49,375 bases of DNA from Rubripirellula obstinata (lineage in GTDB: Bacteria; Planctomycetota; Planctomycetia; Pirellulales; Pirellulaceae): the NCBI RefSeq assembly GCF_001642955.1, contig NZ_LWSK01000038.1:1-49375 (forward strand), in the 5' to 3' direction. The notes under the pieces were generated by a model. That model was not told where the DNA came from. It did not search any database and was given only the letters and a program-made list of their open reading frames with translations. The position numbers and the translations under genes were made by a program. Of the stretch, positions 23,958 to 49,375 are shown piece after piece; positions within the stretch are counted from its first letter, which is position 1, and every line of letters starts with the position of its first letter.

Positions 23958-25163
23958 ATGGCGACAGCCCATGAAGTGCCCAGTTCGGCAAGTTGGTTGT
24001 CTCGTTTGATGACGACCGACTTTTGCCCCTGGGCGAATCGTTTTGTGTATTGGTTGAAAGAACCGATTGGTTGGTTCGTTCTTGCGACGGCAGTCAGCGT
24101 TCTGATTGGTTTGTACTTTAGCCCGATTGGTTGGACGTTGGCCGCATCGCTGACCGCGATCATGGTTGTGGGCATGGCGTGGCCATTGATCGCGATTCAC
24201 GTCACGACTTGCCAACTGCATCCCGAAATCGATTGCGTTCACGAAGATGACGCGTGTCGGATGTTGGTGTCGGTTCGCAATCGTGTTCCCGTTCCCGTTT
24301 GGGGTTTGGCTGTCGAAGGCTATCTCGATTGCGACAACGACGACGCGATACCGACCGTCGGTTTAGCGTGCGTGCCACCGCTTTGCACCAGCGATTTTGG
24401 AATCACGGTCAATCCTTCGCTTCGAGGTCGTTACCCGATTCAAACGCCCCACGTTTCTTGTTCATTCCCGTTTGGAATCTGGACGGCGCGGCGAAACCTA
24501 ACCACGACCAAGTCGCTAACGGTTTGGCCGAAGGTGTTTCCGATCAGTGGAACTTGCCCGATCGTTGGCGTTGCCAATGCTGAACAGGGCGAAGGAAGCC
24601 GCGGTGGCCGGAGCGGCGATTTCGTTGGCGTGCGAGCGTACCGACGCGGCGATTCGGCCAAGCACATCAACTGGGTCGCCTCGGCACGAGTCGATTCGTT
24701 GGTGGTCACCGAACGCGGCGGTCCGCAATGCGTCGAATTGGATGTCTTGGTCGATACGTTTTGCCGAGGCACACGAGATCAATTGGCCGACCGAATTCGT
24801 GTCGCCGCCAGTGTGCTGGTCAATCTGCATCAGTCGAACGTTCCCATGCGAGTGACGATTGGTTCGCAGCGGTTGCGATTGTCATCCGGCAGCAAAGGCC
24901 GCCGGCAGATCCTGGATGCGTTGGCGGACGTTCCGGCCGATGGAAGTGAAAAACCGATCGAGCGGGCCGCGATCGGCCGCCATGCAGTGATCGAGTTTTC
25001 GTCGAACGATTCAGGCCAGGAAATCGTACGCATGATCGACCCGCGTGGAGGTCGTCGAGCCGGTGGCCGTTTGCTGACGAAGCAAATTCGTTCAGGCGAA
25101 ACGTTGGGAACCCAAGTGCGAGAATTCTGGACGGAGGTGCGAGATGCCGATGTCGCCGCGTAA
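23958..25163 (+). CDS. DUF58-domain membrane protein
   Basis: About 401 aa from ATG 23958, which has AAGG 10 bases upstream. Two adjacent helices (WFVLATAVSVLIGLYFSPIG and TLAASLTAIMVVGMAWPLIA) precede a beta-rich region. The DUF58 signature follows: DFVGVRAYRRGDSAKHINWVASARVDSLVVTERGGPQCVELDVLVDTF. DUF58 proteins are vWA-like and almost always sit with MoxR ATPases and transglutaminase-like proteins, as here. The set is thought to assist maturation or stress handling of envelope proteins. It overlaps the next gene by 20 bp. This is the first gene of a five-gene overlapping operon ending at 30405. Confidence 0.9.
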   Translation: MATAHEVPSSASWLSRLMTTDFCPWANRFVYWLKEPIGWFVLATAVSVLIGLYFSPIGWTLAASLTAIMVVGMAWPLIAIHVTTCQLHPEIDCVHEDDACRMLVSVRNRVPVPVWGLAVEGYLDCDNDDAIPTVGLACVPPLCTSDFGITVNPSLRGRYPIQTPHVSCSFPFGIWTARRNLTTTKSLTVWPKVFPISGTCPIVGVANAEQGEGSRGGRSGDFVGVRAYRRGDSAKHINWVASARVDSLVVTERGGPQCVELDVLVDTFCRGTRDQLADRIRVAASVLVNLHQSNVPMRVTIGSQRLRLSSGSKGRRQILDALADVPADGSEKPIERAAIGRHAVIEFSSNDSGQEIVRMIDPRGGRRAGGRLLTKQIRSGETLGTQVREFWTEVRDADVAA

Positions 25164-27306
25164 ACGAAACGAAACAATTCTGATGGCCATCCTGGCAATC
25201 GTCTCGGTCGTTCCGCTGCGGTTCTTCGTTGAATCGCGAAGTTGGTTTTTGGCGGAAATGGGAATGCTGATTGCGTTACTTGCCGTTGCGGAAGTCGTCA
25301 AGACTTTCGGCTCACCCGGTAACGCAAAACCGAAACTCCTGACGAGTTCCGCGATAACACTACTCGCCCTCACCCCCGTCCTATTCGCCGTTCTCGCTCG
25401 TGCATTTGGATCGCCAATTGCCTTTGAGATGTCAGCATTGACCACGTTCGGATCGACCTCGCTAGCCATCGCATTGTCCGCGACTAGCGATCGCACCCGA
25501 GCGATGTCACTGGTGATCAGCGGATTTCTGGTTCTATTCACGACTTCGATTTCTGACGATCCCCGCGCGGTTTGGTTGGCCATTGCGTGGATGACCGTTT
25601 GCGTTTGGCACCTGGTGGCAAATCACTGGGAAAGACTCGACCTCTGCTTGCCCGATTCGGTTCGACCCACCATCGGTGTGCGACCGGCCAGCGTCATGTT
25701 TGCAGTCGTCTTGTGCATCGTTGGCGGCTTGGTCGTTCGCGATCGTTTTAGCCAATCTAATCGTCTTGCCTTCGGATTCATGCCCAGTAGTGGCGGATCA
25801 AAATGGTCCGACCCAGCGGCTCGATCGGGCATCGGAACCGGCGATGCGGCGATCGCAGCGAAAGACCATGCGGAATCGTTTGGCGCGGTCGAATCAGAGA
25901 TCTTTCTCGAATCCACCGAGTCAACATTATTCGACATGTTTAACGACACGATCGGCGAACCCAAAAAGAAGAACAAATGGGAACGTCGACAAGCGATGAA
26001 CAACGACAACTTCATTCCGTCGCACGAACAGGCGTCGAAAAGCGAGAAGGGCGGATCGTCGTTTAGCACCGATCGAATGCCGCCAAAGAAGCATCACCAT
26101 TTTGACGATGCCGTCGAAGCCGCGGTCGTTCAGTGGGACGGTCCAACAGGAATTCGGTTGGCGATGGAACGTTTTGATACGTTCGATGGCGTGGACTGGA
26201 CGAACACGGCGAACCTAGCCGATGCAACCTTGCAGCGAACCGAAATCGACGACGCGGTTTGGTTCTTTGATCGAAGACTGCAGTCCGCGGTGTTTGAAAA
26301 CAGCGATGCAGTGCAAGTCAATCTGCTGAAGGTTCTGCGTCTTGATACGACTCGCCTGCCAGCGCCGATGATGACTGCCGGTCTGCACATCAAAGACGTC
26401 GATCGTCAAGACTTCTTTGGAATCGATGACGACGGTTCGCTGTTCATGCCCGGTCGCGAAAAAGTGCCTCCGCTGACGGTGGCACACTTGGCTTCGCTTT
26501 GCGTGATGGAAGATGAACTGATCGACGGCGCGGCAGACTACGAAGGCTTGAAATCAATCATTCAAGATCTTCGCACCAACTTTACGCTCGACCGAAACAG
26601 TTCTACGAACACCGACGATCCTGTCGCCGAGTTTCTTCGCACTCGTCGTGGCGGCGATCATTTGTTTGCGACCGTCGCGGCATTGAAGGCTCGCGAGATC
26701 GGGTTCCAGTCACGAATCGTGACTGGTTTCTACGTGCGGCCAAATTCGTTTGACATTGCTGCGGGGCACTCCAACGTGACGCCGGACGACGTTCATGTTT
26801 GGGCCGAAATCCGGCTCGAAGATGGTCGTTGGTTCGAGGTTGAACCGACGCCGGGATATCGCGAACCGGTCTACACGCCGTCGATGTGGTTGGTCGCTAA
26901 ACGCTTTGCTGCCGAGCATTGGACGCACGGCTTAGCGATCGCCGGCGTGTTTGCATTTCTGTTCTTTACCCGCTTGATTTGGATCGAATGGTTGCTGTCA
27001 CTGGGTTGGTCGTTGTCATGGCCGCTCGGTCGTCAGCGCCAGCTTCGTATCGCGATGGGGATCGTGGAAACGCGAGCGAAACTGATCGGCCAGCAGCGTC
27101 CCGCCGGTACTCCCCAACGAGACTGGATGGAGTCATTGGTCGCTTCGGACATTCACCTTCGCGATCGTGTGCGAGAGTTCTGTAATGACGCCGACAAAAG
27201 CATTTTCGGTGGCAGTGGTACGATCGACCGCGATCGTTTGAGCGGTGTGGTTCGAGGTTTGAATTCGCGACAGATGAAACAAGTAGTGAATGGTGCAAAG
27301 GCATGA
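25144..27306 (+). CDS. DUF3488/transglutaminase-like membrane protein with altered active site
   Basis: 720 aa. About six N-terminal membrane helices lead into a periplasmic transglutaminase-like domain and a late helix (GLAIAGVFAFLFFTRLIWIEW). The core reads RRGGDHLFATVAALKAREIG, FQSRIVTGFYVRP, DDVHVWAEIRLEDGRWFEVEPTPGY. In active members the first block is G-x-C-x-x-F-A; here the Cys position is Asp505. His551 is kept and the Asp of DPTP is Glu567. Acyl transfer by the usual Cys mechanism is therefore unlikely. An imperfect palindromic repeat (25285-25355) encodes residues about 48-70, including KTFGSPGNAKPKLLTSSA. GGAGGTG precedes ATG 25144; ATG 25150 is an alternative. Confidence 0.88.
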   Translation: MPMSPRKRNETILMAILAIVSVVPLRFFVESRSWFLAEMGMLIALLAVAEVVKTFGSPGNAKPKLLTSSAITLLALTPVLFAVLARAFGSPIAFEMSALTTFGSTSLAIALSATSDRTRAMSLVISGFLVLFTTSISDDPRAVWLAIAWMTVCVWHLVANHWERLDLCLPDSVRPTIGVRPASVMFAVVLCIVGGLVVRDRFSQSNRLAFGFMPSSGGSKWSDPAARSGIGTGDAAIAAKDHAESFGAVESEIFLESTESTLFDMFNDTIGEPKKKNKWERRQAMNNDNFIPSHEQASKSEKGGSSFSTDRMPPKKHHHFDDAVEAAVVQWDGPTGIRLAMERFDTFDGVDWTNTANLADATLQRTEIDDAVWFFDRRLQSAVFENSDAVQVNLLKVLRLDTTRLPAPMMTAGLHIKDVDRQDFFGIDDDGSLFMPGREKVPPLTVAHLASLCVMEDELIDGAADYEGLKSIIQDLRTNFTLDRNSSTNTDDPVAEFLRTRRGGDHLFATVAALKAREIGFQSRIVTGFYVRPNSFDIAAGHSNVTPDDVHVWAEIRLEDGRWFEVEPTPGYREPVYTPSMWLVAKRFAAEHWTHGLAIAGVFAFLFFTRLIWIEWLLSLGWSLSWPLGRQRQLRIAMGIVETRAKLIGQQRPAGTPQRDWMESLVASDIHLRDRVREFCNDADKSIFGGSGTIDRDRLSGVVRGLNSRQMKQVVNGAKA
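25285..25355. repeat. Imperfect palindromic element H, copy 1 (inside a CDS)
   Basis: Left arm 25285-25310 (GTTGCGGAAGTCGTCAAGAC then TTTCGG) and right arm 25330-25355 (CCGAAACTCCTGACGAGTTC then CGCGAT) match the other copies at roughly 21-22 of 26 bases per arm. It is read in frame through the transglutaminase-like gene. It is the most diverged of the four copies, suggesting an old insertion, or chance convergence if a homology search disagrees. Confidence 0.7.
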
Positions 27307-28244
27307 GTGTAGTAATGGAAAACGAAACGCAAGCAGCACTGACAACCTTGCGTGAGCAACTTGGTCGTGTCTTGCTAGGTAAGGCCGAACCAATCGAGTT
27401 GGTGATCGCGTGTTTGCTGGCCCAAGGACACTTGTTGCTGGACGATCTGCCGGGAACCGGGAAGACGACACTGGCAAAGGCACTGGCCGAATGTTTGGGC
27501 GGTCGTTTGTCGCGTGTCCAATGTACGCCGGACTTACTGCCCACTGATGTGACAGGCTTCAACCTATTCAACCAGAAGACTCGCGAGTTCGAGTTCCATG
27601 CCGGCCCTGTATTCGCCGACGTTTTGTTGGCTGACGAATTGAACCGCACGACGCCGCGGACGCAGAGTGCGCTTCTGGAAGCGATGGCGGAACGACAGGT
27701 GACGATCGATGCCGTTCCGCACCGTTTGTCAGAAACCTTTTTTGTCATTGCGACTCAAAACCCAATCGATTCGCACGGAGCGTATCCGTTGCCTGAGGCT
27801 CAATTGGATCGGTTCACGATCAAGCTGCAACTCGGTTACCCCGATCGTGACGCGCAGCTTGGGATTTTGGAAAACGCTTCGCAACCGGACCGAAACAGCG
27901 ATGAACCGCACAACATTTTGTCGCTTCCGGATTTGCGAAAGATCCAACAACAAGTGCAGTCGATCACGGTTCATCCGCGAGTCCGCGAGTACCTTGTCGA
28001 TCTGGTCGAGGCGACGCGGAATGACGCATCAATCCAATTGGGCGTCAGTCCACGTGGCATGTTGCATTGGCAACGAATCGCTCAAGCGTGGGCGGTGCTG
28101 CAAGGTCGCGACTTTGTCACACCAAGCGACGTGGCCAAAGTCGCCCACCCAGTGTTGTCGGTCCGTTTGCTGACCACGACCGATGACGTTGATTCGGTGA
28201 TTGATCGAATCATGCAACAGATCCCTGCACCGGAGTACAAGTGA
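27303..28244 (+). CDS. MoxR-family AAA+ ATPase
   Basis: 313 aa. Walker A is DDLPGTGKTTLAKAL (Lys54), Walker B VLLADELNRTTPRTQSALLEAM, sensor 1 FFVIATQNPIDSHGAYPLPE, and arginine-finger/sensor 2 are in the later SPRGMLHWQRIAQAWA. MoxR ATPases act as chaperone-like partners of vWA/DUF58 proteins in the cytoplasm. It overlaps the transglutaminase-like gene by ATGA (27303-27306) and the following lipoprotein gene by ATGA (28241-28244). Confidence 0.95.
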   Translation: MSVVMENETQAALTTLREQLGRVLLGKAEPIELVIACLLAQGHLLLDDLPGTGKTTLAKALAECLGGRLSRVQCTPDLLPTDVTGFNLFNQKTREFEFHAGPVFADVLLADELNRTTPRTQSALLEAMAERQVTIDAVPHRLSETFFVIATQNPIDSHGAYPLPEAQLDRFTIKLQLGYPDRDAQLGILENASQPDRNSDEPHNILSLPDLRKIQQQVQSITVHPRVREYLVDLVEATRNDASIQLGVSPRGMLHWQRIAQAWAVLQGRDFVTPSDVAKVAHPVLSVRLLTTTDDVDSVIDRIMQQIPAPEYK

Positions 28245-28810
28245 TGAAATCTTCTCGTAGCGTAAGTCGCCAAGACTTTCGGATATCAGCCGCGCACTCG
28301 ATGCCGAAACTCTTGGCGAGTTCCGCTACGTTGTTGGTGGGGCTTATTTTCGGCTGCGGGCCGCAAGACGACGCCCCCAAAGCATCGCACTTCGAGCACG
28401 ACCATATCGTCGCGTCACACTGGCCGAGCGACCTAGCCGACGCGGCAGTGAAGATTCGCGAGCGTCTCGTTTGGATCGACACTGGCGAGGTGCCTGAACA
28501 TCATGCAGAAGATGACGACGATCACCATGACCATGACGAACATGATCATGATGAAAAACATGATCCAGAAACCGAGATCTTCGATCTAGTTTCTTGGGTT
28601 CCAGAAGTCGCCGCCGATACGAACCTTTCTGAAGCGGATTGGTTGCCGCTGTATCACGCTGCGGAATCGTTGATGGTCAATCTGCGTGCGGCCAATGAGG
28701 GCCTGAGCAGCGAGAATCGATCACAACTCGAATCGTTCTGCCAATTGATTGATGAGACCTCGAAGAAAATTCCCGAACGTATCGCTAGCTTGCAGGTGAC
28801 GTCGCCATGA
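28241..28810 (+). CDS. His/Asp-rich lipoprotein with a repeat-encoded signal region
   Basis: 189 aa. Lipobox VGLIFGC, Cys39. Residues about 87-115 form a stretch of alternating His, Asp and Glu (EHHAEDDDDHHDHDEHDHDE), a probable divalent-metal buffer or sensor. The remainder is helical (LPLYHAAESLMVNLRAANEG) and unassigned. Bases 28257-28329 are copy 2 of the palindromic element; they encode residues 6-30, including the n-region and the first part (PKLLASSAT) of the hydrophobic signal. It overlaps moxR and the permease gene by 4 bp each, so it is made with them. It may deliver or sense a metal for the permease (inference). Confidence 0.75.
   Translation: MMKSSRSVSRQDFRISAAHSMPKLLASSATLLVGLIFGCGPQDDAPKASHFEHDHIVASHWPSDLADAAVKIRERLVWIDTGEVPEHHAEDDDDHHDHDEHDHDEKHDPETEIFDLVSWVPEVAADTNLSEADWLPLYHAAESLMVNLRAANEGLSSENRSQLESFCQLIDETSKKIPERIASLQVTSP
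28257..28329. repeat. Imperfect palindromic element H, copy 2 (inside a CDS)
   Basis: Left arm 28257-28282 (GTAGCGTAAGTCGCCAAGAC then TTTCGG), right arm 28304-28329 (CCGAAACTCTTGGCGAGTTC then CGCTAC), loop of 21 bases. The arms pair at about 22 of 26 positions. It is close to identical in the arms to the intergenic copies at 34565 and 49036. It lies five codons after the start of the lipoprotein gene, in frame. Confidence 0.9.
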
Positions 28811-34564: not shown

Positions 34565-34634
34565 GTAGCGAAAGTCGCCAAGACTTTCGGCCACGGCAAT
34601 GGGCGAAACCGAAACGCTTGACGCGTTCCGCTAC
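34565..34634. repeat. Imperfect palindromic element H, copy 3 (intergenic)
   Basis: Left arm 34565-34590 (GTAGCGAAAGTCGCCAAGAC then TTTCGG) and right arm 34609-34634 (CCGAAACGCTTGACGCGTTC then CGCTAC) with an 18-base loop. It fills the gap between the HlyD-like stop and the RND start. In an efflux operon such a hairpin could tune the adaptor-to-pump ratio (inference). Confidence 0.9.
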
Positions 34635-46510: not shown

Positions 46511-49132
46511 CTAAGGGAGGTCGATTTGCATCCAAAACGCTCGTTTTCGGTCGGCTCGACGGCGAGCGTCCTCCAGCATCGTCTTTAGATCGCCGTCAAA
46601 GTCATGGTAGGACGGTCGGGTGCCGTATCGGACGACAATTTGCTGCGACATGTCGATGATCCCTTTCATCGGCCTCAGTCCCAAGCGAATTCGGTCGCTG
46701 GGTGCTTTGCTGACTCGAACCTGGTTTCCCGTTCCAATCGATCCAGCGACGGTGCCCGAGCGGATTCGCGATGCCTGATCCCACAGGATCGGATTTATGT
46801 CGACGCCAGGCTTCAGTTCGCCAAGTTCCAGCCACCAAAAAAACTGATCGCCGCGTCGCATCGTGTTGACTTCAAATTCTTGCGGCATCGGTCGACGCTG
46901 GTGCTGCTTCGTTTTCATCCACTCGAAGAGCCGCGGGATTTCATCGTAGAAAAATTCGCGTCCGCGGCCTCGGTACATGATCACCAACGCATCGTGATGG
47001 AACGACATGTAATCGTCCAAAATCGCACTCGCGCCCGCGTCAACGTTGCCATCCAATTCACCCATCAACAAGTACATCGGAACGAACCGAGCATTGGGTT
47101 CGTAATGATGAATGGTTTTGTCAGGATTCGCGCTGATCGAAATCATGCCAGCCCAAAGGTCAGGGTGCGCTAACGCGATGTCCCATGCCGCGGTCGCTCC
47201 CTCGCCGTGACCGGCAATAAAGATCCGGTCCGAATCGATGCTGCACCGCCGCATCGCGTCTCGCATTGCCACCAAGACGCGTTCGTGTTCGGCGGGTGTG
47301 TATTCATAAGTCCGCTGAGTATCGCGGCTCCACAACGGCGCGACCACTACGAAACCATTTCTGGCCGCGTGCCCCAACCGAGCTTTGGATTCGCTGTTGT
47401 AGATTCCTGACCACCAATCAATCTGGTCTTTGGGGTCGCCGCCGGCCGCGTGAAGAGCGACGACGCACGGATAGGATCGCAGCGGGTTGTATTCGGGCGG
47501 AAGTTGCACCAGGTATCGGGCTCGTTCGGTCTCGACGCGAAAGTAGCCTTCGATTTCTTCGCTCTTGGATTCATCCGGCCAGGGAAGTGTTGGTTTTAAC
47601 AGTGGCAACATTCGGTCAACGTATTCCGGTAACGCGCCTTCCAGGTTTTTTAAAGCAACCAAGATTGATTCCCGACGCGCCGCATCGACACAACTTAAAT
47701 ACTCAGCAACCAGATCACGAACTTGGCCGAGCGAAGCGGCGATGGCTAGGTTTTGAACACCGGAACCTGAACCGAGCAACCAGCCGCTGATGGCAAGTGC
47801 CACGCGATCTTCGATTGCAATCGTTTCGGCATCTTTTAGCCGCGTGTAGTCGCTAAGCCTGACAAGCGTATCGGCCGACAGTTCCTTTTCGATTTCATCG
47901 ACGATGCTGGCAATCTTGGCGGCTTGGCCATCGGGCAATTGCTTGACCTGCTTGCGAAGCTGGACGACAAGATCTTTGCAGTCTTGTTCTTTTTGATTCA
48001 AGTCAGCAATCGCGTCTTGAACCTTTAGCCGAGTGATACGGCCAACATCATCGGTGGGGAAGTTCTTTAGAATTCCCTTGGCGAGTTGATATTGCCCCGC
48101 CTCGGCTCGCAGCTCCGCTTCATCGAGTAGTTGTGATGCTTGTCGCTGCGTTAAACCAATCAATTGTTTTTCGAGAGACTCTTCTTCGGGGAAGTCGCGG
48201 ATTGTTTCTTTGAGTGCATCCTTTGCGTCGCTAAAACGACCGGCGGCGATGTAGAAACGAACGACTTCAAGTCGCCCATTCAAGTCCGTTCGGTCGATTC
48301 GGTTGGCAAAGACTTGGTTCAGTGACGATGACGGCAATGAACTGGTTGCAACACGCATGTCCCACAGCAACGTGGGTTGTCCCTGTGCTGGTTTGAGTGC
48401 GATCAGTCGTGCGTATCGAGGATTGATTTCTCGGATTCCTTGAATCACATGAACCGGCCCCTTGGGGCCACTCATTCGCAATTCGCGTCGGCCAAATTCA
48501 TTGAATGGGGAAATCGCCAGAATGTTGCCCAGACCCGCGACCAACTTTCCGCCCAGCGGTTTGGGTTGCCAGATTTCAATCGACTGGGCGAGGTTGGGTT
48601 GTTGGACCGGCGGCGCGATGACCATCGATTTGCCGTGGATGTATTGGCGTCGCAGTCCATCGTCGATCAACCAGATCGGTCGCACGTTGACTTGGTTGGC
48701 CGCGGCGGCACCAAAGCCCTCTTTGAGAGACGCAATTTCCGCCTTGGATCCACGCAAAACCATGCCGTTGCGAAGCTGAAAGACTTGTTCGGCAAAAGCG
48801 GTTTGTGTGATCAGGCAGATTGCAAAGATGGCTAGCAGGAAAGCCCGCTGGGCTAGGGAGAACGTCCGGCTTAGGACCGTGTTTTGCGAACTCTCTCGTA
48901 GCTGGGCCCGCCAGGGTTCAGTCGGGTAGAGCTGCTGATGGACTGAACCCTGGCGGGCCCAGCTACGGGAAAACTGGGAAGTTATTTCGGAACAGTTCCT
49001 TAGGACCGTCGGAACAAGAAGTGACGGGACACTTGGTAGCGAAAGTCGCCAAGACTTTTGGTTTGTGGAGTTGCCGAAACTCTTGGCGAGTTTCGTTAGG
49101 CCATTTATTGTTCCGACGATCCTTAGGATCAA
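46511..49132 (-). CDS. Secreted alpha/beta-hydrolase-fold protein lacking catalytic Ser and His
   Basis: About 870 aa if read from TTG 49132. The signal peptide is SLAQRAFLLAIFAICLITQTAFA. Next is a beta-rich region, then a helical TPR-like part (AKDALKETIRDFPEEESLEKQ). A C-terminal esterase/peptidase fold has YPCVVALHAAGGDPKDQ, a nucleophile elbow IFIAGHGEGATAAWDIALAHPDLWAG, YLLMGELDGNVDAG and MYRGRGREFFYDEIPRLFEWM. The usual G-H-S-x-G is G-H-G-E-G (Gly codon 47204-47206), and the expected His of GRGHE is Arg, so hydrolysis by a normal triad is unlikely. No ATG, GTG or TTG lies between 49132 and the signal peptide. Intervening codons come from repeats, so the true start is unresolved. Confidence 0.7.
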   Translation of the reverse strand: MILRIVGTINGLTKLAKSFGNSTNQKSWRLSLPSVPSLLVPTVLRNCSEITSQFSRSWARQGSVHQQLYPTEPWRAQLRESSQNTVLSRTFSLAQRAFLLAIFAICLITQTAFAEQVFQLRNGMVLRGSKAEIASLKEGFGAAAANQVNVRPIWLIDDGLRRQYIHGKSMVIAPPVQQPNLAQSIEIWQPKPLGGKLVAGLGNILAISPFNEFGRRELRMSGPKGPVHVIQGIREINPRYARLIALKPAQGQPTLLWDMRVATSSLPSSSLNQVFANRIDRTDLNGRLEVVRFYIAAGRFSDAKDALKETIRDFPEEESLEKQLIGLTQRQASQLLDEAELRAEAGQYQLAKGILKNFPTDDVGRITRLKVQDAIADLNQKEQDCKDLVVQLRKQVKQLPDGQAAKIASIVDEIEKELSADTLVRLSDYTRLKDAETIAIEDRVALAISGWLLGSGSGVQNLAIAASLGQVRDLVAEYLSCVDAARRESILVALKNLEGALPEYVDRMLPLLKPTLPWPDESKSEEIEGYFRVETERARYLVQLPPEYNPLRSYPCVVALHAAGGDPKDQIDWWSGIYNSESKARLGHAARNGFVVVAPLWSRDTQRTYEYTPAEHERVLVAMRDAMRRCSIDSDRIFIAGHGEGATAAWDIALAHPDLWAGMISISANPDKTIHHYEPNARFVPMYLLMGELDGNVDAGASAILDDYMSFHHDALVIMYRGRGREFFYDEIPRLFEWMKTKQHQRRPMPQEFEVNTMRRGDQFFWWLELGELKPGVDINPILWDQASRIRSGTVAGSIGTGNQVRVSKAPSDRIRLGLRPMKGIIDMSQQIVVRYGTRPSYHDFDGDLKTMLEDARRRADRKRAFWMQIDLP
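48897..48967. repeat. Palindromic element K, copy 3
   Basis: CGTAGCTGGGCCCGCCAGGG then TTCAGTC (48897-48923) pairs perfectly over 27 bp with GACTGAACCCTGGCGGGCCC then AGCTACG (48941-48967), loop of 17 bases. It lies about 15 codons upstream of the signal-peptide helix of the hydrolase-fold gene, open in its frame. Confidence 0.95.
49036..49099. repeat. Imperfect palindromic element H, copy 4
   Basis: Left arm 49036-49061 (GTAGCGAAAGTCGCCAAGAC then TTTTGG), right arm 49074-49099 (CCGAAACTCTTGGCGAGTTT then CGTTAG), 12-base loop. It is upstream of the hydrolase-fold signal peptide and open in its frame (minus strand). Confidence 0.9.
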
Positions 49133-49145
49133 GTACGACGACAGG

Positions 49146-49220
49146 CCAGTATCTTCAGGTCCAGTATCTTCAGGTCCGGTATCTTCAGGTCCGGTATCTT
49201 CAGGTCCGGTATCTTCAGTT
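49146..49220. repeat. 15-bp tandem repeat, about five units
   Basis: ATCTTCAGGTCCGGT is repeated about five times from 49151 (first unit CCAGT, last unit decaying to TTCTGG). On the minus strand it reads as repeated EDTGP, which keeps the frame toward the hydrolase-fold gene open but does not look like functional protein. Confidence 0.9.
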
Positions 49221-49229
49221 CTGGAGGGC

Positions 49230-49375
49230 AGAAAGCTGGGTGCCGGTGGTGTTCGCCACCGGAAACATGGCGATCGGAACGGTTGTGAATAGTCCCGGCG
49301 GGACGGAAGCCCTCTGCCGGGGATGCAAATCCCCGGATGGCGGCGCTGAATCTCCCCCATTCTCTGGCTCGGTTA
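49230..49375. repeat. Terminal repeat element related to the left window end
   Basis: GGTGCCGGTGGTGTTCGCCACC (about 49239) resembles the ACCGGTGGC hairpins at 21124. CTGCCGGGGATGCAAATCCC then CGG near 49316 is a hairpin with arms CCGGGGAT/ATCCCCGG. The last bases, ATTCTCTGGCTCGGTT, are the inverse of AACCGAGCCAGAGAAT at 8-23. Both window ends therefore carry the same repeat in opposite orientation. Confidence 0.75.

Follow-up and report, generated by a model that had tools for sequence, protein, structure and literature searches.

Positions 1 to 49,375 of contig NZ_LWSK01000038.1 of Rubripirellula obstinata (assembly GCF_001642955.1), called the window below, contain four copies of a palindrome with 26-nt arms, two of them inside genes. 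The palindrome is a head-to-head pair of GTAG repetitive extragenic palindromic (REP) units, that is, a REPIN, and the reading frame is open through it in eight genes, among them tsaB, where aligned orthologs lack a block that includes it. Very probably, the REPIN has been spread by a REP-associated tyrosine transposase (RAYT), with a minority of copies kept in genes as short in-frame peptides. Although REPs are named extragenic, five of 28 sampled clusters (three of 24 without the window) are judged to be in frame, and a targeted stretch adds tsaB. These genes provide a natural set of in-frame insertions in which to study the conditions for tolerance, purging or use of a mobile repeat.

A dispersed family of GTAG REP pairs

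Every 26-nt arm follows the pattern GTAG + CGRAASTC + loop + GASTTYCG + G. A single REP unit consists of a GTAG head, an 8-bp stem and a 5-nt loop and can fold alone as a hairpin. Its inverted counterpart makes up the second arm, and each palindrome thus comprises two GTAG-headed hairpins facing each other. In the GTAG REP superfamily, a stem-loop of 20-40 bp has an unpaired GTAG on one side. This head is present in 194 of 205 REPs sampled, and stem pair 10-20 covaries in a compensatory manner among the same 205 (104 with G-C, 93 with C-G). The high copy number and dispersal typical of the superfamily are also observed. With up to three mismatches, the whole genome (6,578,705 bases; a draft assembly of 307 contigs) yields 127 forward and 126 reverse REPs, or 253 in 6.58 Mb, whereas a backward control pattern gives 0 forward and 0 reverse matches in the same search. 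The idea that there are no copies beyond the four in the window, which would have spoken against the first-pass annotation, is discarded with this count.

The inverted doublet that defines a REPIN recurs throughout the sampled DNA, where 172 REPs (≤5 mismatches) form 77 head-to-head pairs with spacers of 9 to 61 nt, most commonly 12 nt (23 pairs) or 14 nt (23 pairs). The sample comprises 1,138,111 bases of contigs, window included, and 40 REP-targeted stretches; the contigs were all drawn from earlier lists of REP or Y1 transposase matches, and fifteen extra stretches were examined later. Within the genus the distribution is patchy, with a REP match (≤2 mismatches) in 11 of 22 genomes. At this threshold, genome G003 has 672 REPs, the present genome 247, four others 44, 25, 21, and 15, and five further genomes one each. 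A 400-kb sample of G003 contains 57 REPs and 21 pairs, none of them a convincing intragenic copy. G003 also has tandem REPIN/REP arrays with a period of ~83-100 bp, at ~6400-9900 of L303 (G003:3400001-3420000) and at G003:849321-852884. The best matches of the searched proteins share ~60-77% identity, and no close strain was seen among them.

The four window copies match the family pattern with 0 to 3 mismatches per arm, and their positions agree with the first-pass annotation. Copy 1 (25285..25355, + strand; arms 25285-25310 and 25330-25355) is read in frame as residues 48-71 (VAEVVKTFGSPGNAKPKLLTSSAI) of a transglutaminase-like protein, and its GTAG heads are altered to GTTG and ATCG. Copy 2 (28257..28329, + strand; arms 28257-28282 and 28304-28329) is in frame in the open reading frame (ORF) of a His-rich putative lipoprotein, where it forms residues 5-29 (RSVSRQDFRISAAHSMPKLLASSAT) if translation starts at 28244. 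Copies 3 (34565..34634, + strand; arms 34565-34590 and 34609-34634) and 4 (49036..49099, + strand; arms 49036-49061 and 49074-49099, 12-nt spacer) lie inside long ORFs, yet upstream of probable starts judged by eye: ATG 34541 on the minus strand, just downstream of copy 3, for a transporter-like ORF (RND-like by eye), and a start within the minus-strand ORF 46511-49360 for copy 4. Untranslated is the preferred reading for both, which had been described as intergenic. Of four window arms folded singly, three form the 8-bp hairpin and one has seven pairs with a mismatch. All four whole pairs fold better than shuffled sequences (z from −2.3 to −6.5), copy 3 as a branched form rather than a single long hairpin.

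Some REPINs belong to larger repeats. Copy 4 is enclosed by the palindrome TTAGGACCGTCGGAACAA ... TTGTTCCGACGATCCTTAG (49000..49126, + strand), and nesting in a palindrome of the form TTAGGACCGTCGGAACAATAAGTGGC...GCCACTTATTGTTCCGACGGTCCTAA is seen for 18 of the 79 REPINs sampled, each of which has a 12-nt spacer; the motif search was exact and misses decayed cases. The nested unit measures ~130-150 bp and resembles a miniature inverted-repeat transposable element; examples are window 49000-49126, C13:61135, C5:16948, L258, L291, L369, and L370. Window positions 48900-48964 contain another palindrome, formed by AGCTGGGCCCGCCAGGGTTCAGTC and its inverted copy, and a related one, GTAGCTGATCCCGCCAGGGTTCAGTC, surrounds a REPIN at C13:61135. 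Units resembling TATCTTCAGGTCCGG are arranged in tandem at 49150-49215, adjoining copy 4.

In-frame copies and their readings

The contig sample contains 28 REP clusters. A rough gene caller places six wholly inside ORFs; removal of those at 34565 and 49036, which are judged to lie upstream of the true starts, and addition of the lipoprotein gene, which the caller missed, gives the five judged in frame by gene calls and inspection. Besides the two window genes, these are a uvrA of double length (C13:58350), a hybrid kinase (C1:245830; judged by eye to be of CheB/CheR type, with a PAS domain in Pfam), and the gene of a GDSL-like protein (C253:39548; its Pfam match is under cut-off). Targeted stretches outside the contig sample contribute tsaB (C34:2416; TIGR03725, 132.7 bits against a cut-off of 69.3) and, less surely, the probable secreted proteins C267, which has the element twice in tandem, and C257, both of which have no Pfam match. 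The count leaves aside ambiguous N-terminal ORF extensions (L291, L276, L267 twice, and C222) and low-scoring ORFs, both in the tandem arrays of G003 and at other sites.

Two of the three frames through the left arm are open, and the remaining one meets the TAG of GTAG; the right arm is open in every frame. Because the arms are mostly open, a minority of copies would survive inside genes, where an element of frame-fitting length reads as a short peptide. The predicted peptide is SxSRQDFR or VAxVAKTFG followed mostly by PKLLASSAT. As the first-pass annotation had noted, the right arm is read in the same frame in the two genes of the window (PKLLTSSA and PKLLASSA) and the left arm in different ones (VAEVVKTFG versus SVSRQDFR). 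Across the eight genes, the left arm is of the SxSRQDFR type in five and of the VAxxxKxFG type in three, and seven have PK[LIV]L... from the right arm, counting the decayed NVLTTSAT of the kinase. The right arm of C257 reads RKSWRLSLP, and a universal PKLL frame was therefore discarded. The right frame is set by the spacer length together with the left frame, so its constancy is weak evidence of preference, and frame choice was dropped as a strong argument for selection. A 14-nt spacer, as arithmetic on the sequence shows, cannot yield PKLL.

The clearest case is tsaB. A search returns a match in 37 of 37 genomes, some only to the related TsaD, and all 17 orthologs aligned have a 33-column gap at the element while retaining both flanks. 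The alignment shows a clean in-frame insertion of the element within a larger palindrome, and the interpretation in the first-pass annotation is upheld as far as in-frame tolerance of a dispersed palindrome goes, with orthologs demonstrating insertion for this one gene. The GDSL-like protein has 34-42 residues at the corresponding site where five relatives (G019, G003, G012, G013, and G001) have 2-16, though the site is a variable linker and at least three of 16 aligned orthologs have long unrelated linkers. The uvrA copy sits in a hypervariable linker (16 orthologs), from which the net gain is unreadable. The C267 elements occupy the position of a plain signal peptide in 18 related sequences. 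Taken together, the sites suggest that copies persist where extra or altered residues may be tolerated: interdomain linkers, a loop between membrane helices, and signal peptides.

The transglutaminase-like membrane protein gene (25144..27306, + strand; Transglut_core 70.7 bits, TgpA_N 17.5 bits and under the cut-off of 30) presents a different picture. Its right arm encodes residues 63-70 of a 720-aa ORF. Had the copy been a simple insertion, as proposed earlier, orthologs should be ~24 residues shorter; they carry other residues in similar number, and simple insertion is rejected. The segment bounded by the anchors WFLAEM and SPIA is 60 residues long in the window protein and 50-64 in the 14 orthologs, with 10 of 14 at 59 or 60. 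These 14 are the closest of those found, a fragment and distant sequences having been excluded, and none of them contains a REP (best ≥9 mismatches). For a 24-residue insertion the empty site should be ~36 residues long, a length that none of these orthologs has. In Rhodopirellula maiorica SM1 (L104) the gene shifts frame within the same variable loop, through either a sequencing error or a real break, and this ortholog was discarded as an empty site since the frame changes at exactly that place.

Because the copy adds no length relative to the orthologs, either the host loop would have been exchanged or an insertion would have been offset by a deletion, and the gene thus raises the question of whether REPINs enter by insertion or by templated exchange. 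The latter, in which the REPIN overwrote a loop already encoding similar residues, is a possible account, if clearly the less probable one. It is consistent with the equal length of the REP-free orthologs and with the residues opposite the left arm, VAEGVRAFG in G027 (6/9 identical) and VAESAKAFA in G017 (5/9 identical). G027 belongs to another genus and uses other codons, which the first-pass annotation had regarded as a sign against insertion; with six of nine positions identical, that sign is partly present. An ortholog profile also scores the element residues at 259.3 bits, above all 200 shuffles (maximum 255.7), and the protein without them at 235.2 bits. Of five other REPIN peptides substituted at the site, however, two also exceed the shuffles (257.1, shortened, and 256.1; the others score 254.6, 251.5, and 250.6), and the fit may mean no more than that this reading suits a helix-loop-helix turn. 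An insertion accompanied by a similar-sized deletion in a variable loop would look identical. Moreover, in a tree built with the segment excluded, the window protein is nearest to the clade of G001, G019, G034, R. rubra, and R. maiorica. The segment lengths that can be read in this clade are 52, 55, 64, and 54 residues, so three of four are shorter.

The kinase linker bears on whether some REP-encoded peptides have been kept by protein-level selection, which we consider doubtful. A G012 paralog has a REPIN (5 + 5 mismatches) in the same linker and the same frame, and G019 encodes NVLTSSAT where the present kinase has NVLTTSAT, with six nucleotide differences of which five are silent (hand-counted). 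Against such exaptation, the G019 DNA is barely recognizable as REP and hardly above chance (10 + 11 mismatches; shuffles have a median of 13 and a lowest value of 10), five of seven related kinase sequences, from three genomes, lack the element and its peptide, and the comparison covers only eight codons. It is similarly speculative to view the REPINs of this lineage as portable coding modules that supply a turn- or signal-anchor-like peptide in a preferred frame, overwrite host sequence without change of length, and in some cases come under selection.

The putative lipoprotein gene (28244..28810, + strand) follows an element-free MoxR-type AAA ATPase gene (27303..28244, + strand) that separates it from the transglutaminase gene, and its ATG at 28244 overlaps the MoxR stop. 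The 188-aa ORF has no Pfam or NCBIfam match. An alternative ATG at 28301 is in frame inside the element, and its use would leave the left arm untranslated. We prefer 28244 as the probable start because in the frames of relatives the same context, GV-x-[VMI]-M, directly precedes the signal peptide. The distance from Met to the lipobox Cys is 38 residues, compared to 16, 17, 17, 18, 35, 35, 43, and 55 in eight relatives (lengths hand-counted; three more loci submitted, L081, L100, and L104, yielded no row). None of the eight contains a REP (9-13 mismatches versus a shuffle mean of 11.7), and the copy is, by this comparison, lineage-specific. The proposed insertion is equivocal here: four relatives with only 16-18 residues favor it, but the net gain is only three residues over two of the nearest relatives (35 and 35), and a third has 55. 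Exact excision of the 73 nt would disrupt the reading frame; the ancestral site must therefore have differed by at least one base. The lipoprotein, the transglutaminase loop, C267, and C257 are together suggestive of an element that may build signal or membrane segments.

It is improbable that the intragenic copies in general are untranslated, residing in lucky ORFs with downstream true starts or in dead genes. This is the preferred reading at 34565 and 49036 and a possible one for the lipoprotein, given ATG 28301, and Di Nocera, De Gregorio and Rocco (2013, PMC3733652; published reports are cited here for the parts covered) warn that N-terminal REP copies may be misannotated. The copies in uvrA, tsaB, the kinase, and the GDSL-like gene, on the other hand, have conserved parts of a single open frame on both sides, and the start context at 28244 is common to relatives. 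Chance palindromes in coding DNA, for which nothing speaks beyond arms that are open in most frames, are rejected with near certainty by 253 matches against 0 in the control.

Probable mobilization and the transposase question

Most copies appear to land between genes. We infer that the REPIN spreads most likely as single-stranded DNA, mobilized in trans by a RAYT. Y1 transposase matches number eleven in the present genome and 23 in five relatives. The two own genes compared with NCBIfam are RAYTs (NF047646, 177.1 and 164.5 bits; cut-off 80). Y1 transposases fall into classes, one of them mainly planctomycete (PMC6006769). One Y1 frame, L012 (G000 C177:22930), has an internal TGA and is apparently dead.

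Several observations weigh against spread by a RAYT with retention as in-frame peptides. No copy of the present REP (≤6 mismatches) is found within ~1.5 kb of the 33 Y1 loci scanned, which comprise 10 of the 11 own loci and the 23 from relatives. Of the nine own Y1 loci that were examined, six (L006, L007, L009, L011, L013, and L015) lie beside other repeated motifs. The transglutaminase copy is present without net insertion, and at its site similar residues are encoded by G027 and G017. Finally, a TTG within the element is a possible start codon for C267. The flanking units of RAYT genes can be missing in known cases (PMC3733652). Motifs near the six Y1 loci include GTAGGCCGGAACAA, GTAGCATGGCCCCC, and TGCCGTAACTCGCT, and several REP families probably coexist in the genome.

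Relation to known repeat systems

The first-pass annotation described an "analogous, unrelated planctomycete element." This is corrected here, as a GTAG REP pair is of a kind published in 2013 with a planctomycete host, R. baltica, which has several GTAG families (PMC3733652). The kind of element is already known, and the present REPIN is a further example. Intragenic REPs are known as well; dimers or groups of them encode 20-30 residues, and uvrA is among their targets (PMC3733652). An open-access literature search found no report linking a REPIN, a signal peptide, and a RAYT. The copy without added length in the present genome is not mentioned in the covered parts of PMC3733652.

The present element shares with published GTAG REPs the head, the short stem-loop, head-to-head dimers, high copy number, and a mostly intergenic location with some copies in ORFs. 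This likeness to the R. baltica REPs is one of description rather than of consensus; the 2013 report distinguishes 24 families. Dimers nested in longer palindromes occur there too, but in other species and with other sequences (PMC3733652). Like the REPINs associated with RAYTs (Bertels and Rainey 2011, PMC3116915), the element is an inverted REP doublet that can form one hairpin and is a common unit. No RAYT flanked by the present REP was found among the 33 Y1 loci scanned. In Pseudomonas fluorescens SBW25, 14 of 1,067 core 16-mers overlap genes (PMC3116915), compared to the five of 28 sampled clusters here. The intragenic Rickettsia palindromic elements RPE-4 and RPE-6 are CGTC repeats (PMC3733652), whereas the present element, compared by description, is GTAG-headed. 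It resembles the Rickettsia palindromic elements in being a palindromic repeat, and those are found in frame in many unrelated proteins.

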